Source: Brevundimonas sp. Root608
GTDB taxonomy: Bacteria > Pseudomonadota > Alphaproteobacteria > Caulobacterales > Caulobacteraceae
Reading direction: 5' to 3'
Length of the DNA: 64,000 bases
NCBI RefSeq assembly: GCF_001427825.1
Contig: NZ_LMGT01000001.1
Location: 372,001-436,000 of the forward strand
The position numbers and the translations under genes were made by a program. Under the pieces are notes generated by a model. The model did not search any database and was not told where the DNA came from. It was given only the letters and a program-made list of their open reading frames with translations. Below, one piece after another: positions 36,179-45,574 of this stretch. Every line of letters starts with the position of its first letter. Position 1 is the stretch's first letter.

Positions 36179-37690
36179 CTAGTCGACCCAGTCCCTCTTC
36201 AGCGTCCGCGAGGCGCCGATCAGCAGCACCGCCGCCAGCAGATAGAAGCCCATGCCGGTGTAGATGGCCCAGCGCAGGCTCTCCTCGCCGAAGCGGGGCG
36301 CCAGCAGGTCGCTCATCCAGCCGAAATAGTAGAAGCCGACGGCGATCCCGAGCAGATTGTTGATCAGCAGGAACAGGGCCGAGGCGGTCGAGCGCATCGG
36401 CGCCGGAACCAGGTGCTGGATCGAGGCGGTGATCGGCCCCAGCCAGGCCAGGTTCAATCCGGTCGGGATGATGAAGATCAGGAAGGCCAGGATCAGCTGC
36501 TGGGCGTTGGTGCCGCCGCCCGGGATCACCAGGCCGATCAGCCACGGCGAGTTCATGGCCAGGATGAACATGGGCGCCGAGATCAGGAAGGCGATGGCGG
36601 GGGTCAGGGGATAGGCCCCCTTGCCGCGCTTCGACAGCTTGTCGGCGATGGCGCCGCCGGCCCAGATTCCCAGGGTCCCGCCGATCAGGGCGATGCCGGC
36701 GTAGTACCAGCTGGTCTGAGACAGGGTCAGGCCGAAGCTGCGCATGAAGAACAGCGGCAGCCAGCCGGCGACGCCGTAGCCGCACACCGAGGACGAGGCC
36801 GCGCCCAGGGCCAGAAGCCAGAAGCTCGGCTTGGGAATGACCGCCGAGGCGGTGCGGCGCGCGATGGTCAGGGAGATGCCGATCACCATGGCCAGCAGCC
36901 CGCCGAAGGCGAACACCAGCGGATTGCCGAGGGCCAGGCCGGCGAAATGGATCAGGGCCGCGAGGGTCAGGGCGCCGGCTCCGATGCCCAGCATGATCAG
37001 GGCCGCGATCGCGCCCGCCCGGCCGGAGCCGACCACCGGCGCGGCGGCGATGACCGCCAGCTCGGCCTCGGTCTTGGCCGTGTCGGTTCCGCCGCGCGTG
37101 GGATTGCGCACCGTGAACAGAAGCACCGGCGCCAGCACCACGCCGAGCAGGCCGACGGCGATGAAGGCCGTGCGCCAGCCGTAGGTCGCGGCCAGCAGGC
37201 CGCCGACGAGCGTCCCTGCCGCCGTGCCCAGCGGAATGCCGAAGGCGAAGGCCGCCAGGGCCCGCGCCCGCTGATGCGGCGGGAAATAGTCGGCGACGAG
37301 GGAATAGGCCGGGGCCACGCCCCCCGCCTCGCCGACGCCAACGCCCATGCGGAACAGGAACAGCTGGGTGAAGGATCCGGCCACGCCGCACAGGGCGGTG
37401 AAGCCGCTCCACACCGCCAGGGCGCCGGTCATGATCCAGACGCGGCTGTAACGGTCGGCCAGCCAGGCCAGGGGAATGGCGAGGGTCGAATAGACCGAGG
37501 CGAAGGCGATCCCGCCCAGCAGGCCGAACTGGCTGTCGGACAGGCCGAACTCCGCTTTCAGCGGCGCCGCCAGGATGCCGATGATCTGCCGATCCAGGAA
37601 GTTCAGCATATAGACGAGGATCAGGATCGCCAGGACGTAGAAGCGATATCCGGGCCGAACGGCGGGCGCGGCGGCGTCCGTGGCGGTCAT
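36179..37690 (-). CDS. MFS transporter, spinster-like
   Basis: A 503-residue inner-membrane transporter with twelve predicted helices. The first helix region VYMLNFLDRQIIGILAAPLK and the loop motif LADRYSRVWIM match the spinster-type MFS group common in sphingomonads and Caulobacterales. GVGVGEAGGVAPAYSLVADYF near residue 115 is also typical. Substrate is unknown. The start at 37690 drops a poorly conserved 34-residue extension. It lies downstream of a TonB-dependent receptor on the same strand, beyond a terminator. Confidence 0.87.
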   Translation of the reverse strand: MTATDAAAPAVRPGYRFYVLAILILVYMLNFLDRQIIGILAAPLKAEFGLSDSQFGLLGGIAFASVYSTLAIPLAWLADRYSRVWIMTGALAVWSGFTALCGVAGSFTQLFLFRMGVGVGEAGGVAPAYSLVADYFPPHQRARALAAFAFGIPLGTAAGTLVGGLLAATYGWRTAFIAVGLLGVVLAPVLLFTVRNPTRGGTDTAKTEAELAVIAAAPVVGSGRAGAIAALIMLGIGAGALTLAALIHFAGLALGNPLVFAFGGLLAMVIGISLTIARRTASAVIPKPSFWLLALGAASSSVCGYGVAGWLPLFFMRSFGLTLSQTSWYYAGIALIGGTLGIWAGGAIADKLSKRGKGAYPLTPAIAFLISAPMFILAMNSPWLIGLVIPGGGTNAQQLILAFLIFIIPTGLNLAWLGPITASIQHLVPAPMRSTASALFLLINNLLGIAVGFYYFGWMSDLLAPRFGEESLRWAIYTGMGFYLLAAVLLIGASRTLKRDWVD

Positions 37691-37756
37691 GGCGTTTCCC
37701 TCGATTTGGTCTTCTGGTTGGGCCGAACGGTAGCGGCGCTTTTCAGCAGCGCCAAA

Positions 37757-37790
37757 GAAAAAGGGCGGCGGCTCAGGAGAACCGCCGCCC
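37757..37790 (-). terminator. terminator after the TonB-dependent receptor
   Basis: On the minus strand gggcggcgg and ccgccgccc (9 bp) close a ten-base loop and are followed by TTTTTC. It separates the receptor from the MFS gene. Confidence 0.85.
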
Positions 37791-37826
37791 ATGATCAGAT
37801 GGATCAGGTTTCAGGAGTCGTGGTGA

Positions 37827-40025
37827 TCAGAACTTGACCTGCAGCGAGGCGGTGACCGTCTGCGGCGGGCCGTAGTAGCCGATGATCGAGTTGTCGAAGA
37901 GCGCGCCCGGGAAGTTGTAGCCGCCGACGCGGTACTCCTCGTCGGTCAGGTTCTTGCCGTAGAGGCCGAGGGTGTAGCGGTCGCTCGGGTCGGTCCAGAC
38001 GATCGCCAGATCGACCAGGGTGTAGGCCTGCTGATCGAGGATCGGGTTCGGGAACTCGAACATGCTGGAGTCGCCGCGGTAGCTGACCGAGGGTGTGACC
38101 GCCAGGCTGCCGCCGGCCACGTCGCCGATCCAGGTCAGGCCGAGGTAGCCGGTCCACTCCGGGGCGTTCTGCAGCACGACCTGATCCGAGATGTCCTCGA
38201 ACGCCAGGGTGGTCAGGTTGTAGCGCAGGAACTCCTCGAAATCGGAGTTCAGATAGCCGACCGCGAAGTTGGCCGACAGGCTGTCGAGGATACGCAGCTG
38301 GCCTTCGAACTCGGCGCCGTAGAAGGTCGAGGACCCGACGTTGTCGACGAAGCTGGCGATGCCGGCGACAGCCGGAACCTGGGTGGTGACCTGCTGGTCC
38401 TTGTATTCGTTGTAGAAGATCGAGGCGGCGAACGTCAGGCGGTCGAGCGCGCCCTTCAGGCCCATCTCATAGGAGTTGACCGTTTCGGGATCATAGCCGT
38501 TGACGGTGTTGGGCGTGAGGATCGCGTCGCCCCGCATGTCGAAACCGCCCGACTTGAAGCCCTGTGAGTACGAGGCGTAGGTCGTCATGTCGTCCGTCAG
38601 ATCGAAGGACAGGGCGATGCGCGGTGTAAACTGGCTGAAGTCCTTGGAGCGGGTGTAGCTGGTCCGGAGCAGGGTCGGCGCGCGCGGCGTGCCGCCGAGC
38701 AACGGGCTGCGGGTGGCCGTGGCGTAGTTGGCGCGGAACACGGTTCCCTCCTTGTCGTCCAGCGTATAGCGGAGGCCAAGGCCAAGGTGCAGGCGGTCGG
38801 TCAGGTCGAGGTTGACGTCGGCGAAGCCCGCCCAGCTCTCGGTGTTCACCTGGCCGTTGGTGCCGATAACGAAGCCCGCATTGCCCAGGACGGTGTCGAA
38901 AGCGCCCTCCGCATGGCCATCCAGATAGAAGAAGCCGGCCACGCCCTGGATCCGGTCGTAGTCGAACAGGAACTGGAACTCCTGCGTCAGCTGATCGTCG
39001 GCATAGAAGCCCGGGATGTCCAGCGTCGCCGCCGGGGTGTTGTCGAAGTCGATCACCGTCGTGGTTTCGCCTTCGCGCCAGGCCGTGATCGACTTGAAGG
39101 TCCAGTGGTCGTTCAGGTCGATCTGGACGGTGGCGGAAGCGCCCTGGCTCATCACCGAGTTGTCGTCGCCGAGGCCGGCGTTGGTGTCATAGACGCTGGG
39201 CAGAACCGCGCCGGCCGGGGTGGCGCCGGCGACCAGACGGTGGCCGTGGCGGGGGTTGGAGTCGTCCTGGACCCGGTCATAGGCCAGGCGGATCGACATC
39301 TCCTCGCGGGGTTCCCATTCGGCGCTCAGGCGGCCGGCCAGAACGTCCTTGTTATAGTGCTCGGCGCCGGTGTTGATGTTCTCGCCGTAGCCGTCGCGCT
39401 GATAGCTGGCGATGGCGGCGCCGACGCGGAAAGTGTCGGCCAGCGGCAGGCTGCCCGAGGCCATCAGGTCGACCTGGTTATAGCTGCCGTAGGCGCCGCG
39501 CAGCGTCAGTTCGGGGTCATGCGACAGGCGGTTGGTGACGTATTTGATCGCGCCGCCGACCGTGTTGCGCCCGTAGAGTGAGCCTTGCGGACCGCGCAGC
39601 ACCTCTATGCGCTGGACGTCGTAGATGTCCAGCACGGCGCCCTGCGGGCGGGCGACGTAGACGTCGTCGACGTAGAGGCCCACGCCGGGCTCGAAGCCCC
39701 ACAGGGGATCCTGCTGGCCGACGCCGCGGATGAAGGAGATCAGGGTGGAGTTGGAGCCGCGGGCGACCTGTACGGTCGCGTTCGGCGTCTGCTGCTGCAG
39801 GGCGGTGATGTCGGAAGCGCCGGTCTGCTCCAGCCGCTCCTCGCCGAGGGCCGAAACCGAAATCGGCACGTCCTTCAGCAGTTCGTCGCGGCGGCGGGCG
39901 GTGACGACCACGTCGTCCAGCGCGGACGCCTGGTCCTGCGGTCCGACATTCTGGGCCACGGCGAAGGTCGAGAGCGCGCTCCAGGCGGCCCCCGCAAGCA
40001 AGGCGGTCTTTACGTAGCGATTCAT
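37827..40025 (-). CDS. TonB-dependent outer-membrane receptor
   Basis: A 732-residue receptor. A signal peptide ends at AVAQN (about residue 25); DDVVVTARRRDELLKDVPISVS is the TonB-box/plug start, the plug has YVDDVYVARPQG and VLRGPQGSLYGRNTVGGAI (about 95-140), and the last strand ends in Phe (ASLQVKF). The barrel imports a scarce ligand powered by TonB; the ligand is not clear. The divergent TetR gene and the nearby MFS transporter suggest a small uptake locus. Confidence 0.93.
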   Translation of the reverse strand: MNRYVKTALLAGAAWSALSTFAVAQNVGPQDQASALDDVVVTARRRDELLKDVPISVSALGEERLEQTGASDITALQQQTPNATVQVARGSNSTLISFIRGVGQQDPLWGFEPGVGLYVDDVYVARPQGAVLDIYDVQRIEVLRGPQGSLYGRNTVGGAIKYVTNRLSHDPELTLRGAYGSYNQVDLMASGSLPLADTFRVGAAIASYQRDGYGENINTGAEHYNKDVLAGRLSAEWEPREEMSIRLAYDRVQDDSNPRHGHRLVAGATPAGAVLPSVYDTNAGLGDDNSVMSQGASATVQIDLNDHWTFKSITAWREGETTTVIDFDNTPAATLDIPGFYADDQLTQEFQFLFDYDRIQGVAGFFYLDGHAEGAFDTVLGNAGFVIGTNGQVNTESWAGFADVNLDLTDRLHLGLGLRYTLDDKEGTVFRANYATATRSPLLGGTPRAPTLLRTSYTRSKDFSQFTPRIALSFDLTDDMTTYASYSQGFKSGGFDMRGDAILTPNTVNGYDPETVNSYEMGLKGALDRLTFAASIFYNEYKDQQVTTQVPAVAGIASFVDNVGSSTFYGAEFEGQLRILDSLSANFAVGYLNSDFEEFLRYNLTTLAFEDISDQVVLQNAPEWTGYLGLTWIGDVAGGSLAVTPSVSYRGDSSMFEFPNPILDQQAYTLVDLAIVWTDPSDRYTLGLYGKNLTDEEYRVGGYNFPGALFDNSIIGYYGPPQTVTASLQVKF

Positions 40026-40201
40026 GTGTAGCCCCAATCCAATGATTTCCAGCCCGAGACGCTTTTATTCAGCGTTCAATGATTTTCGCGGAACGTAATC
40101 GTTTTCGGCCGCCTGTCAAACAGCGCAGCTTCCCCGAAGTCAGCAGCGTCCCGACCTGTGGCGCCGTTGCACAGCCGGGGGAATGCAGCCTAGCTTGGCT
40201 C
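40026..40201. promoter_or_regulatory. divergent control region, receptor/tetR
   Basis: The 176-base gap separates two divergent genes and is more AT-rich than its flanks around 40065-40110. cgttc (40073-40077) and gaacg (40091-40095) form a short inverted repeat with 13 bases between, a weak operator candidate for the TetR protein. Confidence 0.35.
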
Positions 40202-40903
40202 ATGACCAAGCTCGATGCGCCGGCCGCCAGACGCGGACGTCCCCCGAAAGCCAAGGCGGCCGGTTCGGCCGACACTCGCGACCTGATCCTGGACGCGGCG
40301 GAGGACCTGTTCTCGAAGCACGGCTTCTATGGGGTCACGATCCGGGAGGTAGCGCGCGAGGCCGGGGTCGATACGGCGCTGGTGCACTATTATTTCGGGG
40401 CCAAGCGGGGGCTGTTCGACGCCGTCTTCCTGCGCCGGGCCGAGGTCTGGAACAACGAGCGGGTCGATGCGGTCAACCGCTATGCCCGCGAGGCCGGGCC
40501 GGGCGGGATGACGCTGGAGGGGCTGCTGGAGGCCTTCCTGCGCCCGCCGTTCCAGTGGTCGCTGAAGGGCGGCCCCGGGTGGAAGCACTATTCCGCCCTG
40601 GTGGCCCAGACCAACGCCAACCCGACCTTCGGCGGCGAGACCATGGCCCGCTATTTCGATCCGGCGATCCGGCGGCTGATCGAGCTGATCAAACAGATCA
40701 TGCCCGAGGCGCGGGAGGTCGATCTGTACTGGGCCTATCACAACCTGTCCGGGGCCCTCACCCTGACCCTGGGCGAGACGGGGAGGCTGGACCGGCTGTC
40801 GGGCGGCCTGTGCCGCTCGGGCGATCTGGAGAGCGCCTGCGACTATATGGTGCGGTTCGCGGCGGCGGGGTTCCGGGCGGTGTGCCTGCCTAGCGAAGAC
40901 TGA
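40202..40903 (+). CDS. TetR/AcrR family regulator
   Basis: A 233-residue repressor. The N-terminal HTH (TRDLILDAAEDLFSKHGFYGVTIREVAREAGVDTALVHYYFGAKRGLF, residues about 24-72) is a clear TetR_N domain preceded by a basic RRGRPPK arm. The ligand-binding part contains a GGPGWKHYSALVAQTN segment. It is divergent from the TonB-dependent receptor and likely controls it. The frame is open further upstream but 40202 is the natural start. Its 3' end overlaps the convergent DUF2141 gene by 14 bases. Confidence 0.92.
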   Translation: MTKLDAPAARRGRPPKAKAAGSADTRDLILDAAEDLFSKHGFYGVTIREVAREAGVDTALVHYYFGAKRGLFDAVFLRRAEVWNNERVDAVNRYAREAGPGGMTLEGLLEAFLRPPFQWSLKGGPGWKHYSALVAQTNANPTFGGETMARYFDPAIRRLIELIKQIMPEAREVDLYWAYHNLSGALTLTLGETGRLDRLSGGLCRSGDLESACDYMVRFAAAGFRAVCLPSED

Positions 40904-41306
40904 TCTCCTGGCGGGCGCCGGCGGCGGGCAGGTCGAAGGCGGCGGCGTCGAAGGCCGGCGGACCGAAGCGGCCGCGGGCGTTGCGGGAAAAGCCGTAGGC
41001 CTCCTTCGGCAGGCCGATCGGCCAGGTGCTGAGGCGGCCGTTTCCGTCGGTGTCATGGAAGGCGGCGACGGCGTAACGGCCGGGCGTCAGGCCGGCGAGC
41101 GTGGTCGTCGTCACCCGGCCGGTGCGGGGGATCAGGGCGGTGCGCACGGCGCCCTCGCCGCGGCGCATTGCGTCGGCGTCGCGGTAGACCGCGATGGCGA
41201 TCCGCCCCCCGGACGCGCGGGTCGACAGGGCCAGCGTCAGCTCGGCCGCCGCGGCCGGGGCGGCGGCCAGCACAAGGGCGGCGGCGAACAGCGATGCGCG
41301 CTTCAT
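40890..41306 (-). CDS. DUF2141 exported protein (1)
   Basis: A 138-residue periplasmic protein with a Sec signal peptide (about 22 residues, ending AAAAE) and one DUF2141 domain: AIAVYRDADAMRRGE, GLTPGRYAVAAFHDTDGNGRL, then PKEAYGFSRNARGRFGPPAFDAAAF. The DxDxNGxL segment looks like a metal-binding turn. DUF2141 proteins have no known function. A second member lies at 43668-44072, on the other side of the LytTR and carotenoid oxygenase genes. It is divergent from the LytTR gene. Confidence 0.87.
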   Translation of the reverse strand: MKRASLFAAALVLAAAPAAAAELTLALSTRASGGRIAIAVYRDADAMRRGEGAVRTALIPRTGRVTTTTLAGLTPGRYAVAAFHDTDGNGRLSTWPIGLPKEAYGFSRNARGRFGPPAFDAAAFDLPAAGARQEISLR

Positions 41307-41370
41307 TCCGGGTCCGTTTCGTGGTCTCAAGGGCGGATCCACAGACCACGCCTGGAGGAGGCCGTCCAGC
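41307..41370. promoter_or_regulatory. inverted repeat between DUF2141 and lytTR genes
   Basis: cgtggtct (41320-41327) and agaccacg (41343-41350) form a perfect 8-bp inverted repeat with 15 bases between, filling most of the 64-base divergent gap. It is a good operator candidate for control of both genes. Confidence 0.5.
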
Positions 41371-42150
41371 ATGAGCGCGAGCGAGACCGGGCCGGATGTC
41401 GTGCGCATCGCCATCGACAGGCGGCTGTTGCGCGGGATCGCCGTGGCCCTGGCCGGCGGCGTGCTGCTGGCCCTGACCGGGGCCTTCGGCATGCACGACG
41501 TGTCGCTGGGGTTCCGGCTGACATACTGGCTGCCGGTGATGCTGATGGGGGCCCTGTGGGGGCATCTGTGCTCGCGGCTGGTCGAGCGGCGCGTGGACAT
41601 CGACGCGCGGCCATGGCTGGCGGTGGCGGCCCTGACGGTGGTCATCTCCGGGCCGCTGGCGGTGATGGTCTGGGCCGTCACGGGCTGGTTCTTCGACGAC
41701 GACCGGTCGGTGACGCTGGCGCGGCTGCCGGACTTCCTCGGGCCGGTGCTGGTGGTGACCGGGACGCTGAGCGCCCTGAACGTCTTTCTGGGGCGGACGC
41801 CGGTCCAGACGCATGCGGCGGCGGCGGGGGCGAAGCCGGCGCGGTTCCTCGACCGGGTGCCGTTCAGGCTGAGGGGCGCGGTCATCCGGGCGGTCCAGTC
41901 CGAGGACCATTATCTGCGCCTCCATACCGACCGCGGTTCGGACCTGATCCTGATGCGGCTGTCCGACGCCCTGGCCGAGCTGGAGGGGCTGGAGGGCGCC
42001 CAGACGCACCGCAGCTGGTGGGTGGCGAAGGACGCGGTGCGCGGGGTGAGCCGGCGCGACGGCCGGGCCACCCTGACGCTCGAGGGCGGGCTCGAGGCGC
42101 CGGTGAGCCGCCGCTACGCCAGGGCCCTGCGCGAGGCCGGCTGGTACTGA
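41371..42150 (+). CDS. membrane-bound LytTR-family transcription regulator
   Basis: A 259-residue protein: four predicted membrane helices (about residues 22-45, 52-72, 84-106 and 115-135), then a C-terminal LytTR DNA-binding domain (about 160-257) with IRAVQSEDHYLRLHT and HRSWWVAKDAVRGVSRR. Such proteins lack a receiver and are thought to sense a membrane signal directly. The neighbouring carotenoid oxygenase and DUF2141 genes are possible targets. The start at 41371 has a GGAGGAGG-like ribosome site upstream. Confidence 0.87.
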   Translation: MSASETGPDVVRIAIDRRLLRGIAVALAGGVLLALTGAFGMHDVSLGFRLTYWLPVMLMGALWGHLCSRLVERRVDIDARPWLAVAALTVVISGPLAVMVWAVTGWFFDDDRSVTLARLPDFLGPVLVVTGTLSALNVFLGRTPVQTHAAAAGAKPARFLDRVPFRLRGAVIRAVQSEDHYLRLHTDRGSDLILMRLSDALAELEGLEGAQTHRSWWVAKDAVRGVSRRDGRATLTLEGGLEAPVSRRYARALREAGWY

Positions 42151-42196
42151 GCTCCTTCCCTGGCCTGCCGCGCCTCGCGCTGCCTGAGGCCATTTC

Positions 42197-43657
42197 CTAC
42201 CCCGCCCAGACGCCATGGAAGCCGGCCGGCAGGGCGACGTCGGCGCGCCAGGTGGCGACCGGGCCGTCGGCGACGCAGGCGGCGTCGAAGGCGTGCAGCT
42301 CGGTGACCCCCTCGCGCAGATTGATCGACGGGGCGATCAGCCAGGCGTCGGTTTCGTCCGGGCCGCGGGGGACGAAGACGGCCTCCTCGACGATCTGGGT
42401 GACCCCGAAGTTGAAGTAGTCGGATACGCCGCTGTCCCAGTTCCAGGTCGCCAGACCGGTGGGCAGGGGGCGGTCGGGGCGCTCGCCGGCGACGTGGACG
42501 GTCAGGCGGCGGGGCAGGCCGGCGCGGCGCGGGTCGTTCTTCGGGAACTCGGCGGTGACGCCCGAGGAAGCCAGTTCGGCGCGGCCGTCGGCGTGGAGGG
42601 TGACCAGCTTGAGCACCGCATGCTCGCCGGGGACCGAGCCGCGCTGCTCGACCAGGACGCGGGCGCCGTCGATGGCGAAGGCGACGTCCTTGCCGGCGGC
42701 GACGTCGAAGCGGATCGTGCCGGACCTATCCTCCCAGGCGTCGCCGAGATGGAAATAGCTGAAGGCGGGCAGGTCGAAGAGGCGGCGGCGCGACAGGTCG
42801 GCCTTGTCGACGACGAGGATCTGGGTGCCCAGCTCGGGCTTCCAGGCGAACTGGCTGGCGTAGGGCATGCCGCGGTGGTCGAAGACCCAGGGCTGGAGCA
42901 CCAGGATCAGGTGGCGGGCCGTGGCGGTGAAGTCATGCATGAAGCTGGCGCGCGGCAGGTCGATCAGCTGGGCCGTGTTAAGGCTGCGGTCGGCGTTGAG
43001 GCGCCAGACGATGGCCTTGTCGCCGTTCAGGCCGATGTTCCAGATCGTGCCGTCGGGGTCGTAGCGCGGGTGGGCCTGGAAGGGCATGCCCTTGAGGTCG
43101 TCGCGCAGGCTGACGAAGCGCCGGGTCGACAGGTCAGCGGCGGACATGGCCAGGGGCGAGCCGCCTTCCCATAGGGCCCAGACCTCGTCGCCGGCCAGCA
43201 TGACGGCGGTGTTGGCGGCGTTGACGTCGTCGTTGGAGCCGACCCGGGCGCGGGCGTCGCCGGCGGTGCCGAAGCCGGGCGAGACCACGGCCCCGATCTC
43301 GCTCTCCCAGCGCCGCTTGGGGGTGTCGGCGAAGCGGGCGTCGAGGGTCACCTGGCCGTCGTTGATGCGGAAGGCCCGCATCAGGCCGTCGCCGTCGAAC
43401 CAGTGGGTGGCCGAGCCGCCGGGGCGGCGGAACTTGCCCGGGCCGTTGCGGAACAGCGTCCCCGTCAGGCCCGCCGGGGCGCGGCCGTGGACGAGGCGCA
43501 GGACCCGCGGCGCGACGTCGGCCTCGAGGTCGGCGGTGGCCAGGGCCCAGTCGGCCGAGGCCTGCATGGCGGCCATGGCGCGGACCGTTTCCGGCGTCAC
43601 CACGGCGGCGGAGAGGGCGGCGGCGCCCATGAGGAAGTTCCGGCGGGAGGCTTGCAT
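42197..43657 (-). CDS. carotenoid oxygenase family protein, Tat-exported
   Basis: A 486-residue member of the carotenoid cleavage dioxygenase family. The four Fe(II)-binding histidines are visible in FQAHPRYD, FMHDFT, YFHLGD and, at the C-terminus, GFHGVWAG. A SRRNFL twin-arginine signal at the start implies export of the folded, iron-loaded enzyme. Family members split carotenoids or stilbenes; substrate unknown. It is the second gene after a DUF2141 gene, 10 bases apart, in one leftward unit. Confidence 0.9.
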   Translation of the reverse strand: MQASRRNFLMGAAALSAAVVTPETVRAMAAMQASADWALATADLEADVAPRVLRLVHGRAPAGLTGTLFRNGPGKFRRPGGSATHWFDGDGLMRAFRINDGQVTLDARFADTPKRRWESEIGAVVSPGFGTAGDARARVGSNDDVNAANTAVMLAGDEVWALWEGGSPLAMSAADLSTRRFVSLRDDLKGMPFQAHPRYDPDGTIWNIGLNGDKAIVWRLNADRSLNTAQLIDLPRASFMHDFTATARHLILVLQPWVFDHRGMPYASQFAWKPELGTQILVVDKADLSRRRLFDLPAFSYFHLGDAWEDRSGTIRFDVAAGKDVAFAIDGARVLVEQRGSVPGEHAVLKLVTLHADGRAELASSGVTAEFPKNDPRRAGLPRRLTVHVAGERPDRPLPTGLATWNWDSGVSDYFNFGVTQIVEEAVFVPRGPDETDAWLIAPSINLREGVTELHAFDAACVADGPVATWRADVALPAGFHGVWAG

Positions 43658-43667
43658 CAGGGGGCCC

Positions 43668-44072
43668 CTAGCGGATGCTGATCGTCTGGGCGGTTTGGCC
43701 CGAGACGGGGAAGCGGGCGGCGGCCCAGCGGGCGGGGCCCATATTGCCCACGGCGTTGTTGGAGAAGGCGTAGGGCTCGATCGGGATGCCGAAGGGGTTG
43801 GCGTTCATCCGGCCGTCGCCGTTGACGTCGTGGAACGCCTTCACGGCGTAGTCGCCGGCGGGCAGGTGGTCGAAGCGGGCGACGACGGGGCCGTCGGCGG
43901 GGACGGCCAGGCGGGCGACGGCGGGGCCGCCGTTGTACGCGGCCTCGGAGTCATAGAGGGCGACCATGACCGAGCCGGTGCGGGCCCCGGTCTCGAAGGT
44001 GACGACGACGCTGGAGTCGGCGGGGGCGGCCTGGGTGGTCAGGAGCAGCAGGGCGGCGGCGAGGAAGAGCAT
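43668..44072 (-). CDS. DUF2141 exported protein (2)
   Basis: A 134-residue paralogue of the DUF2141 protein at 40890-41306, with a signal peptide (ending about residue 18), LPAGDYAVKAFHDVNGDGRMN and PIEPYAFSNNAVGNMGPARWAAARF. It leads the unit that continues into the carotenoid oxygenase gene. The start codon at 44072 is preceded by AAGGAC. Both DUF2141 copies end in a short hydrophobic strand plus Ser-x-Arg. Confidence 0.86.
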   Translation of the reverse strand: MLFLAAALLLLTTQAAPADSSVVVTFETGARTGSVMVALYDSEAAYNGGPAVARLAVPADGPVVARFDHLPAGDYAVKAFHDVNGDGRMNANPFGIPIEPYAFSNNAVGNMGPARWAAARFPVSGQTAQTISIR

Positions 44073-44174
44073 GGGGCGGTCCTTGAACGGGGCCCGACGA
44101 CCGGGCCGTTTCGATGGACCGACCCTGGGGCGGGGCCGGGGCCCCCGTCCTCAGGATTGCGGGATTTGCAGGCG

Positions 44175-44210
44175 GCCGTTCGCGAACGGCGGCGGGCGTG
44201 CGTTCACGAA
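44175..44210. promoter_or_regulatory. GTTCnCGAA repeats upstream of the DUF2141/carotenoid oxygenase unit
   Basis: gccgttcgcgaacggc (44175-44190) is a perfect 16-bp palindrome, and a second gttcacgaa lies at 44202-44210. The two GTTCnCGAA cores are direct repeats starting 24 bases apart, the kind of arrangement LytTR regulators bind. They lie about 100-140 bases upstream of the DUF2141 start. Confidence 0.45.
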
Positions 44211-44289
44211 GCGCGGGCGGACAGGCCTCCGGGGGCAGGCGGCGCGGGGCAGGCGGCGCGGAGTTCGGCGAGGGTGGAGCCGACGTGGC

Positions 44290-44631
44290 CTAGCCGCAGG
44301 CGCAGACGGCCTCCCGGACGCAGGTCGAGGCGCGGCCGGACCCCGGGGCGGCGTAGCGGGTCACGCCGGTGGCGCACCGGGCCGGTTGTCCGGCGGGGCA
44401 GACGGCGGTGCAGCCGCCGCAGACGCCGGTCGGGGCGGCGCTGCAGCCGGCGGCCTGGGCCGCGCCGGCGCCGGCCTCGACCCGGGTGATGACGGCGTCG
44501 ACCTGCGAGGGGTGATCGCCCGCCGGCTGGCCGAAGGTGCCGAGGAAGCCGGCGCCGGGAATGCCGCCGGCCGGCACACAGCCCGCGAGCGCCAGGGCGA
44601 GCGTTGCGATAGCCAGGACGCGTTTGAACAT
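44290..44631 (-). CDS. Cys-rich predicted lipoprotein
   Basis: A 113-residue protein with a lipoprotein signal (LALALAGC, Cys18) and eight further Cys residues (63, 71, 74, 78, 86, 104, 110, 112) in the C-terminal half, including CGGC and CAC. This could be a disulfide-stabilised or metal-binding surface domain. No family was recognised. It is a single gene; the start codon lies at 44631 with GGATCC-type purines upstream. The DsbA-like gene is nearby but on the other strand. Confidence 0.6.
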   Translation of the reverse strand: MFKRVLAIATLALALAGCVPAGGIPGAGFLGTFGQPAGDHPSQVDAVITRVEAGAGAAQAAGCSAAPTGVCGGCTAVCPAGQPARCATGVTRYAAPGSGRASTCVREAVCACG

Positions 44632-44737
44632 GGGATCCTCCCCGGGATGGTCCTCAATGGGTAGGCGATCAGCGGTATTTGAGCAAGGCGGGACAGGGTC
44701 GGTCATGAGGCCGGATTTGCGGATTGGAGGTCGTCGT

Positions 44738-44881
44738 CCTTCCCCCATTTCGGGGGAAGGTGGGCCGCGCAGCGGCTCGGATGGGGGCTCTGTCCGGTTC
44801 GCCGTCAGCGAGCAGCGTTCGCCGCCGACAGCCCCCATCCGTCAGGCTTCGCCTGCCACCTTCCCCCGAAATGGGGGAAGG
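44738..44881. repeat. MITE-like inverted-repeat element (144 bp)
   Basis: A 26-bp sequence at 44738-44763 is the exact reverse complement of 44856-44881. Each arm is itself a hairpin with a CCCCC-ATTTCG-GGGG core. Inside, cggatgggggct and agcccccatccg form a second inner pair. No coding capacity. The whole element sits between the Cys-rich lipoprotein gene and the DsbA-like gene. Confidence 0.85.
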
Positions 44882-44911: not shown

Positions 44912-45574
44912 ATGCCCAAGACCCTCCACATCGACTTCGTCTCCGACATCGTCTGCCCCTGGTGCGTGGTGGGGCTGGGCGGGCTGGAGACGGCGCTGGC
45001 GACGCTGAAGGCCGAGGGGATCGAGGCGGAGGTGCATTTCCAGCCGTTCGAGCTGAACCCGCAGATGCCGCCCGAGGGCGAGAACATCGTCGACCACATC
45101 GGCCGCAAATACGGCTCGACCCCCGAACAGTCGGCGGCCAACCGGGCCATGATCACCCAGCGGGCGGCGGAAGCCTGGCCGGGGTTCGAGATGCGGATGG
45201 GGCCGGCTGGGCGCATCTGGAACACCTTCGACGCCCACCGGCTGCTGCACTGGGCGGGGACGGTGGGGATGGCGGAACAGAGGGCGCTGAAGGCGGCGCT
45301 GTTCACGGCCCATTTCACCGAGGGCCGGACGATGACGGACGCGGTGGTGCTCGCCGAAGCGGCGGCGGCGGCGGGGCTGGACCGGGACAAGGCGGTCGAG
45401 GTGCTGGCCGACGACCTCTATGCGGCCGAGGTGCGGGCGGCGGAGGCGCTGTGGGTCTCGCGCGGGATCACCGGCGTGCCCGCCGTGGTGGTGGAGGGGA
45501 AGTGGCTGATCTCGGGCGGGCAGCCGGCGGGGGTGTTCGAGGAGGCCCTCAGACAGATGGCCGCCGGGGGCTGA
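44912..45574 (+). CDS. DsbA family oxidoreductase, FrnE-like
   Basis: A 220-residue thioredoxin-fold protein with the CPWC active site (residues about 15-18) in FVSDIVCPWCVVG, a helical insertion and the cis-Pro loop GITGVPAVVVEGKWLISGGQP near residue 185. FrnE-like DsbA proteins lack a signal peptide and act in the cytoplasm as disulfide oxidoreductases or isomerases. The last 147 bases recur as a broken copy at 46401-46547. The start lies 30 bases after the MITE-like repeat. Confidence 0.9.
   Translation: MPKTLHIDFVSDIVCPWCVVGLGGLETALATLKAEGIEAEVHFQPFELNPQMPPEGENIVDHIGRKYGSTPEQSAANRAMITQRAAEAWPGFEMRMGPAGRIWNTFDAHRLLHWAGTVGMAEQRALKAALFTAHFTEGRTMTDAVVLAEAAAAAGLDRDKAVEVLADDLYAAEVRAAEALWVSRGITGVPAVVVEGKWLISGGQPAGVFEEALRQMAAGG

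Follow-up and report, generated by a model that had tools for sequence, protein, structure and literature searches.

Introduction

Several described LytTR regulators can be compared with a locus of Brevundimonas sp. Root608, found in a 64,000-nucleotide stretch of its genome (contig NZ_LMGT01000001.1, positions 372,001 to 436,000; here the window, whose numbering is used throughout), where genes for a membrane LytTR transcription regulator, two DUF2141 proteins and an enzyme of the RPE65/carotenoid-oxygenase family lie together between positions 40890 and 44210. LytTR Regulatory Systems (LRS) combine a LytTR regulator, a partner protein in the membrane and repeats located at the promoter of the regulator itself, and the LytTR proteins of LRS-like versions from Bacteroides are membrane-embedded (PMC6193735). 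RcoM and CoxC recognise TTCNNGCA-type repeats through their LytTR domains (PMC11347149). HigX of Caulobacter crescentus is a membrane-associated LytTR factor linked to cell-envelope genes and to the motif ATGTTASC-GSTACCAT; its gene adjoins that of a putative COG4188 hydrolase and, in Caulobacter, ctrA as well (PMC13384398).

With LRS the locus and its relatives have in common a LytTR regulator, repeats at the promoter of the regulator and possibly a partner in the membrane, but both the partners and the direct repeats are different (PMC6193735). In LRS the partner is a separate transmembrane inhibitor encoded together with the regulator. Here it would be, in relatives, a DUF2306 membrane protein, which is divergent from the regulator rather than co-operonic, is not known to inhibit it and is absent from the Root608 genome (2,789,653 bases in 11 contigs), and while the 9-bp direct repeats of LRS stand 12 bp apart before the -35 element, the repeats conserved here differ in sequence and in spacing. 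CoxC and RcoM are, like the window protein, one-component LytTR regulators, CoxC also being embedded in the membrane, although they differ in the geometry of their sites and in sensing CO through the MHYT domain of CoxC and the haem of RcoM (PMC11347149), whereas no Pfam sensor domain was found in the window LytTR protein. Their TTCNNGCA-type repeats are similar in letters to the TTCGCGAA words described below. HigX resembles the window protein in being a membrane-associated LytTR factor of the Caulobacterales tied to envelope genes, but has other neighbours and another motif (PMC13384398), the neighbours in the window being TetR, DUF2141 and oxygenase genes. One of the genomes surveyed (G049) has a second LytTR gene, probably that of HigX, divergent from an alpha/beta-hydrolase-like gene and with a product 40% identical to the window LytTR, while its orthologue of the window LytTR is elsewhere (C3:622761). 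Since the hydrolase-linked and the window-type LytTR are separate genes in this genome, the window LytTR would be a paralogue of HigX, and orthology was rejected on neighbourhood, with the caveat that the hydrolase of G049 scores just under the Pfam cut-offs (26 against 27 bits). The nearest named relatives of the window LytTR are Brevundimonas records. In the literature searched, which did not extend to subscription papers, we found neither a description of this LytTR-DUF2141-oxygenase module nor any LytTR regulator associated with a carotenoid oxygenase; one paper names LytTR and DUF2306 together, as separate halotolerance-associated clusters.

Comparison of the sequences of relatives establishes a pairing of DUF2141 and oxygenase genes, an operator, a tie between that operator and LytTR, intact metal-binding and second-shell residues in the oxygenase, and export signals. 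A previously unrecognised LytTR regulon with a defined operator is well supported by these comparisons.

A composite operator upstream of the DUF2141-oxygenase operon

The oxygenase gene (42197-43657, minus strand; 486 residues; PF03055, 283.7 bits against a cut-off of 27) is preceded by DUF2141b (43668-44072, minus strand; PF09912, 92.8 bits against 24.4), the first gene of the operon, which encodes a small exported β-sandwich protein. On its other side lies the gene for the 259-residue LytTR one-component regulator (41371-42150, plus strand; PF04397 at residues 172-256, 61.1 bits against 22.6), and divergent from this is DUF2141a (40890-41306, minus strand; PF09912, 94 bits against the Pfam cut-off of 24.4), which also encodes a small exported protein. 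These genes, together with the repeats discussed below, are all present where the first-pass annotation had placed them.

The pair of GTTCnCGAA repeats upstream of DUF2141b (44178-44210), GTTCGCGAA at 44178 and GTTCACGAA at 44202, lies within a longer composite site at 44176-44216 on the minus strand. Two TTCRYGAA words spaced 8-26 nt apart occur once in the whole genome, and the reversed-pattern control not at all. Of 45 loci, 29 have TTCRYGAA upstream of the DUF2141-oxygenase unit, against a mean of 1.0 and a maximum of 4 in dinucleotide shuffles, and 14 have two or more copies (shuffle mean 0.01); TTCGCGAA-like words were seen in several DUF2141/LytTR gaps of distant relatives. A position weight matrix that started from the window site was applied to 95 upstream regions, five near-duplicates having been dropped from 100, and gave a 43-bp composite with the left element RTTCGCGnnnCGnGAACGG and the right element cGTTCGCGAA. 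The sequence-only model R1 was then made from 51 sites, the 52 that scored at least 40 less the window's own, all from the operon or DUF2141 side. Their alignment is gapless, with C6, G7, C11, G12, C37, G38 and A40 invariant, and the operator, 41-43 bp in length, has the consensus RTTCGCGnnnCGnGAACGGnC-N~10-cGTTCGCGAA. On the Root608 genome R1 returned one strong site, that at 44176-44216 (39.1 bits, E 2.4e-9), with a runner-up at 17.3 bits (E 0.017).

Association of the operator with LytTR

Among 149 Caulobacteraceae genomes, R1 sites at E<=0.01 were found in 98. Counting only the best listed site of each, 85 of the 98 had it 400 bp or less upstream of LytTR, 1.2 kb or less upstream of the DUF2141 unit, or both, the 1.2-kb limit having been set after it was seen that a DUF2306 gene can intervene. 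In 36 genomes that lack the operon the best site is 25-136 bp upstream of LytTR, where about 0.01 such sites would be expected by chance; none of these was in the training set of R1, which came solely from upstream of DUF2141. The others of the 85 lie before LytTR and not before the operon in operon genomes (9), between divergent LytTR and operon (13), between LytTR and a DUF2141 gene without oxygenase (4) or before the operon alone (23). A site is present in 93 of the 120 genomes with a LytTR orthologue, taken as the best match per genome, to about 1e-41, from the 136 genomes with any match, against 5 of 29 without (p 2.6e-9). Three genomes (G148, G051 and G141) have LytTR and the operon on separate contigs with a site at each. 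Among named loci outside the training set, 9 of 32 have a site at E<=0.01 at the start of LytTR (L031, L036, L037, L041, L042, L043, L048, L052 and L063), and L051 has one at 0.02.

It would therefore seem likely, from this distribution of sites, that the membrane LytTR protein binds the operator and controls both itself and, in the window in trans, the operon. Some observations weigh against this. The matrix behind R1 was seeded with the window's own site, and the operator can be read as either an inverted or a direct repeat, whereas LytTR factors classically bind direct repeats. An R1 site was not found in 27 of the 120 LytTR genomes and none is listed in 10 of 58 operon genomes, while 13 of the 98 best sites are at neither place, two of them (G087, G062) directly before a DUF2306 gene. 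In two of five Brevundimonas genomes with LytTR far from the operon (G083 and G127) LytTR adjoins DUF2306 with no R1 site there, and G127 has no R1 site anywhere. R1 also found nothing at E<=1 in Pseudoalteromonas (L055 and L057-L059), L049 and L053, and nothing at E<=0.6 in the Sphingomonadales and Pseudoalteromonas triads, so that in Pseudoalteromonas, L049 and L053 the association of LytTR with the site rests on short look-alikes.

The operator might instead belong to another regulator, most plausibly the TetR protein encoded at 40079-40903 (plus strand), with LytTR as a mere passenger at that promoter. TetR proteins commonly bind palindromes, and many Brevundimonas loci, as well as some from Caulobacter, have TetR, a TonB receptor and a major facilitator superfamily (MFS) gene close to LytTR. 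However, the site also precedes LytTR in loci with no TetR match (for example L036, L041, L043 and L048) and is present where sucCD-like genes follow instead (G088, G094 and G128; names assigned by eye), and none of the 29 genomes without LytTR has a site at these places, although this is partly a consequence of how the count was constructed. Ownership of the operator by TetR is consequently improbable. With LytTR as the favoured regulator, a class of membrane LytTR regulators gains a concrete predicted operator.

Conservation of the gene set

The oxygenase clade occurs in 59 of the 149 genomes, and in 56 of the 59 a DUF2141 gene lies immediately upstream on the same strand, with match-to-match gaps of 32-103 nt. 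Of the other three, G133 and G115 have the gene at a contig end, and for G070 DUF2141 is not listed. For the next 45 matches to the RPE65 family, only one has a DUF2141 gene in front. The position of LytTR was scored on a list of 58 operon genomes, which includes G070 with a placeholder coordinate and G133 with DUF2141 on another contig and omits G115, making 56 of 59 the cleaner count of the pairing. LytTR is divergent from the DUF2141 side in 18 of the 58 and convergent behind the oxygenase, as in the window, in 16; it is on another contig in 16, far away on the same contig in 7 and has no orthologue in 1. Among the named loci found through LytTR, 40 of 64 contain LytTR, the oxygenase and an adjacent DUF2141 gene, including the four from Pseudoalteromonas (L055, L057-L059), whose LytTR proteins are 28-30% identical to that of the window. 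The first-pass annotation had made its proposal depend on the genes being neighbours in relatives and this they are, though in 23 of the 58 LytTR is not linked to the operon. No oxygenase was found in the viral contigs searched.

DUF2306 as a possible partner in relatives

From genomes without the operon, eight proteins encoded across the operator from LytTR were scanned, and all eight are DUF2306-family membrane proteins, with scores of 32.4-39.8 bits that are just above the cut-off of 31.6. A DUF2306 gene is divergent from LytTR in at least 57 of the 120 LytTR genomes, the rows having been chosen by eye, and stands between LytTR and the DUF2141-oxygenase pair in several Caulobacter-type genomes (for example G130, G134 and G077). 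A search of the Root608 genome for DUF2306 gave nothing at E<=0.001. Since the divergent neighbour of LytTR in relatives is so often DUF2306, the locus is not the self-contained system it was first taken for: relatives tie its regulator to a membrane protein that, at this threshold, Root608 does not have.

PraC, a fungal DUF2306 membrane protein, is required for epoxidation in pramanicin biosynthesis; it belongs to the same Pfam family as the LytTR neighbour and acts on a hydrophobic compound (PMC12895699). It is, however, fungal, whereas the bacterial neighbours barely exceed the DUF2306 cut-off and the family is absent from Root608.

The arrangement around LytTR varies. In two Brevundimonas loci DUF2306-like genes (L009, 5357-5900; L014, 5357-5971; both minus strand) occupy the place of DUF2141a between TetR and LytTR, so that two unrelated exported or membrane families, DUF2141 and DUF2306, alternate at one divergent promoter. 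In G056, G064, G142 and G146 (e.g. L226) DUF2306 and a DUF2141 match are divergent from LytTR with an operator, and an oxygenase of this clade is not listed; LytTR control can thus extend to DUF2141 where the enzyme is missing. Across the operator in G088, G094, G128 and G132 (L207, L220, L221 and L223), DUF2306 is followed by a sucC-like gene, in some with sucD (by eye), a possible link to central metabolism.

The inverted repeat between DUF2141a and LytTR

The 64 nt that separate DUF2141a from LytTR contain an inverted repeat with 8-bp arms, CGTGGTCT-N15-AGACCACG (41320-41350), a separate DNA site confined to Brevundimonas. The first-pass annotation had regarded this repeat and the GTTCnCGAA repeats as matching operators. 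Both are present, and the latter form a regulatory site tied to LytTR by the distribution of R1 across genomes, but R1 has no match in 41307-41370 and the two sites are different sequences, so the idea that they match was rejected. Such a repeat is in itself only mildly unusual: shuffling the gap produced one in 96 of 5000 cases, and 45 of 999 tiles of the window contain one. The window and four other Brevundimonas loci (L006, L008, L009 and L014) nevertheless have identical 7-bp arms, GTGGTCT/AGACCAC, around a spacer that varies, the eighth pair being lost in L008. Across the genus, 5 of 61 genomes contain the pattern and 12 of 61 its reversed control, and the evidence for the repeat is thus its conservation at this place and not its rarity. 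In L009 and L014 the gap opens onto the DUF2306-like gene in place of DUF2141a (open reading frames by eye), which assigns the repeat to the promoter on the LytTR side rather than to DUF2141a. An RNA stem was considered and rejected (fold signal z 0.22).

The repeat could serve LytTR as a further operator, for control of its own gene and of DUF2141a. Its place within the divergent LytTR promoter, the retention of the 7-bp arms in all five aligned loci and an arm spacing of 23 bp, near the 24 bp of the other site, are consistent with this. The letters nevertheless differ from those that R1 recognises, the genus-wide count falls below its control, and elsewhere in Brevundimonas LytTR is found without this gap: in most other loci with TetR next door it starts from a few bases to about 120 after TetR. 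A second operator here is accordingly rather doubtful.

Active site, fold and export of the oxygenase

When aligned with the Synechocystis apocarotenoid oxygenase (2biw), the window enzyme has the four histidines and three glutamates that characterise PF03055, which we take to be the iron-binding and second-shell residues respectively. In the window enzyme these are His196, His241, His303, His481, Glu164, Glu370 and Glu425; all of them, and Trp163, are invariant in an alignment of 31 relatives. Trp163 is the carotenoid-type residue at this position rather than the stilbene-type lysine. The AlphaFold model (predicted local distance difference test, pLDDT, 90.9) is a seven-bladed propeller with a template modelling (TM) score of 0.83 to 2biw_A. 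Beyond the fold, the four His, the three second-shell Glu and the Trp-Glu pair, the likeness to 2biw ends: the two are about 25% identical, the window enzyme is exported by the twin-arginine translocation (Tat) route and shares an operon with DUF2141 under predicted LytTR control, and its clade is mostly found in genomes without carotenoid genes.

The N-terminus of the oxygenase, MQASRRNFLMGAAALSAA, is a twin-arginine signal. The arginine pair is present in 25 of the 31 aligned relatives, and in the other six when the frame is read further upstream. With such signals throughout, the oxygenase is therefore probably folded and iron-loaded before export, and we infer that it is active in the periplasm. 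The N-terminal half of the LytTR protein has three hydrophobic segments above threshold, with perhaps a fourth by eye, joined to the LytTR domain as in other membrane one-component regulators of this type. Along with the export signals these bear out the envelope location that had been suggested for the system. For DUF2141b the structure model (pLDDT 91.3) is a β-sandwich for which Foldseek gave no match at E<=0.001 and VIA Z did not exceed 8.4, so that the fold provides no functional lead. A sequence search of the PDB likewise gave nothing at E<=1 for DUF2141b or at E<=0.1 for LytTR. DUF2141a and DUF2141b, 36% identical, are the only DUF2141 genes in the Root608 genome.

The substrate of the oxygenase

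The enzyme may be a genuine carotenoid- or apocarotenoid-cleaving oxygenase whose substrates are the carotenoids of the strain itself. The Synechocystis enzyme is its best match in both sequence and fold, with the Trp163-Glu164 pair shared, and Root608 has a crtI gene (C10:82305-83783) beside a lycopene cyclase gene (C10:83846-84952), which makes its own carotenoids possible substrates. DUF2141 genes also adjoin crtG in Sphingomonadales (PMC5989583, PMC9241875). These pairs resemble the window operon in having DUF2141 beside an enzyme for a hydrophobic polyene, but the partner is a biosynthetic hydroxylase, and the accessible parts of the two papers mention neither LytTR nor the oxygenase.

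Across the genomes that carry the oxygenase this picture is not sustained. Genes for crtI above cut-off are present in 17 of the 59 carriers and 23 of the 90 other genomes (p 0.71), and those for lycopene cyclase in 11 carriers and 18 of the others (p 1); 42 of the 59 carriers have neither. A link between operon presence and carotenoid genes across the 149 genomes was thus rejected, as was one with rhodopsin, for which the enzyme would make retinal (2 of the 59 carriers and 9 of the 90 other genomes have PF01036). The enzyme is moreover exported, and scores 121.9 bits, far under the cut-off of 675, for the 8'-apo-carotenoid 13,14-cleaving dioxygenase equivalog (NF052295). Cleavage of the strain's own carotenoids is on balance possible but somewhat unlikely. 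Of the apocarotenoid processing first suggested for the locus, the carotenoid-type active site and the crtI and lycopene cyclase genes of Root608 speak for it, while a general role is not borne out in the 42 carriers.

A lignostilbene- or isoeugenol-type aromatic dioxygenase for lignin-derived compounds was also considered. Lignostilbene dioxygenase (NF053778) gives the highest NCBIfam score, and NOV1 and LSD4 are among the close structural matches, but the score, 134.5 bits, is far under the family cut-off of 800. In addition Tyr101 and Lys134 of NOV1, which we take to bind the 4-hydroxyl, align by hand count with Phe and Trp, the Trp being invariant in the 31 relatives. Such an activity would seem quite improbable.

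A model for the regulon

We suggest that the window locus belongs to a regulon that is conserved among relatives and governed by a membrane-embedded transcription factor, the LytTR domain of which would bind the composite TTCGCGAA-type operator. In many relatives this operator lies between LytTR and a divergent unit, which may be DUF2306, DUF2306-DUF2141-oxygenase or DUF2141-oxygenase, and LytTR is therefore proposed to control itself and its neighbours. In most of the Brevundimonas examined, the window included, LytTR would have moved off the operator to a position behind the oxygenase or elsewhere, while the operator has stayed before DUF2141b and the oxygenase, so that control of the operon would be in trans. 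The products, a DUF2141 β-sandwich protein and a folded iron(II) carotenoid-cleavage-type enzyme exported by Tat, would leave the cytoplasm. The enzyme may then act at the envelope on a hydrophobic polyene, cleaving one of its C=C bonds.

A more far-reaching and tentative proposal is of a dedicated envelope pathway, old enough to be common to Alphaproteobacteria and Pseudoalteromonas, with LytTR as sensor, one TTCGCGAA-type operator, DUF2306 as a membrane redox protein, DUF2141 as a binding protein and a periplasmic dioxygenase of the carotenoid-cleavage type. The carotenoids of the cell itself would not be its substrate; this might be an isoprenoid of the envelope, an unsaturated lipid or an apocarotenoid that is scavenged, and either substrate or product would be the signal for LytTR. 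DUF2141 and DUF2306, both of unknown function, gain a testable shared regulon. Since enzymes of the carotenoid-cleavage type are here exported by bacteria of which most have no carotenoid genes, their real substrate becomes an answerable question.

Flanking genes and minor features

On the TetR side the locus is flanked by a TonB receptor gene (37827-40037, minus strand) next to TetR. Together with an MFS transporter gene these occupy 36179-40903 of the window, and the MFS and TonB proteins, where they accompany LytTR, might import the substrate of the oxygenase. A scan of 40800-44700 for sigma-70 promoters and terminators gave none, with results close to the shuffle mean. On the DUF2141b side is an open reading frame for a cysteine-rich, small lipoprotein-like product (44290-44631, minus strand), with no Pfam match and no relative among the other loci found through LytTR, and possibly lineage-specific. 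In the space between this gene and the next, which is DsbA-like (44912-45574, PF01323), two exact palindromes CTTCCCCC-N5-GGGGGAAG at 44739-44759 and 44860-44880, of which 0.07 would be expected in the window, enclose about 140 bp. The pair suggests a small intergenic element that is mobile or repeated.

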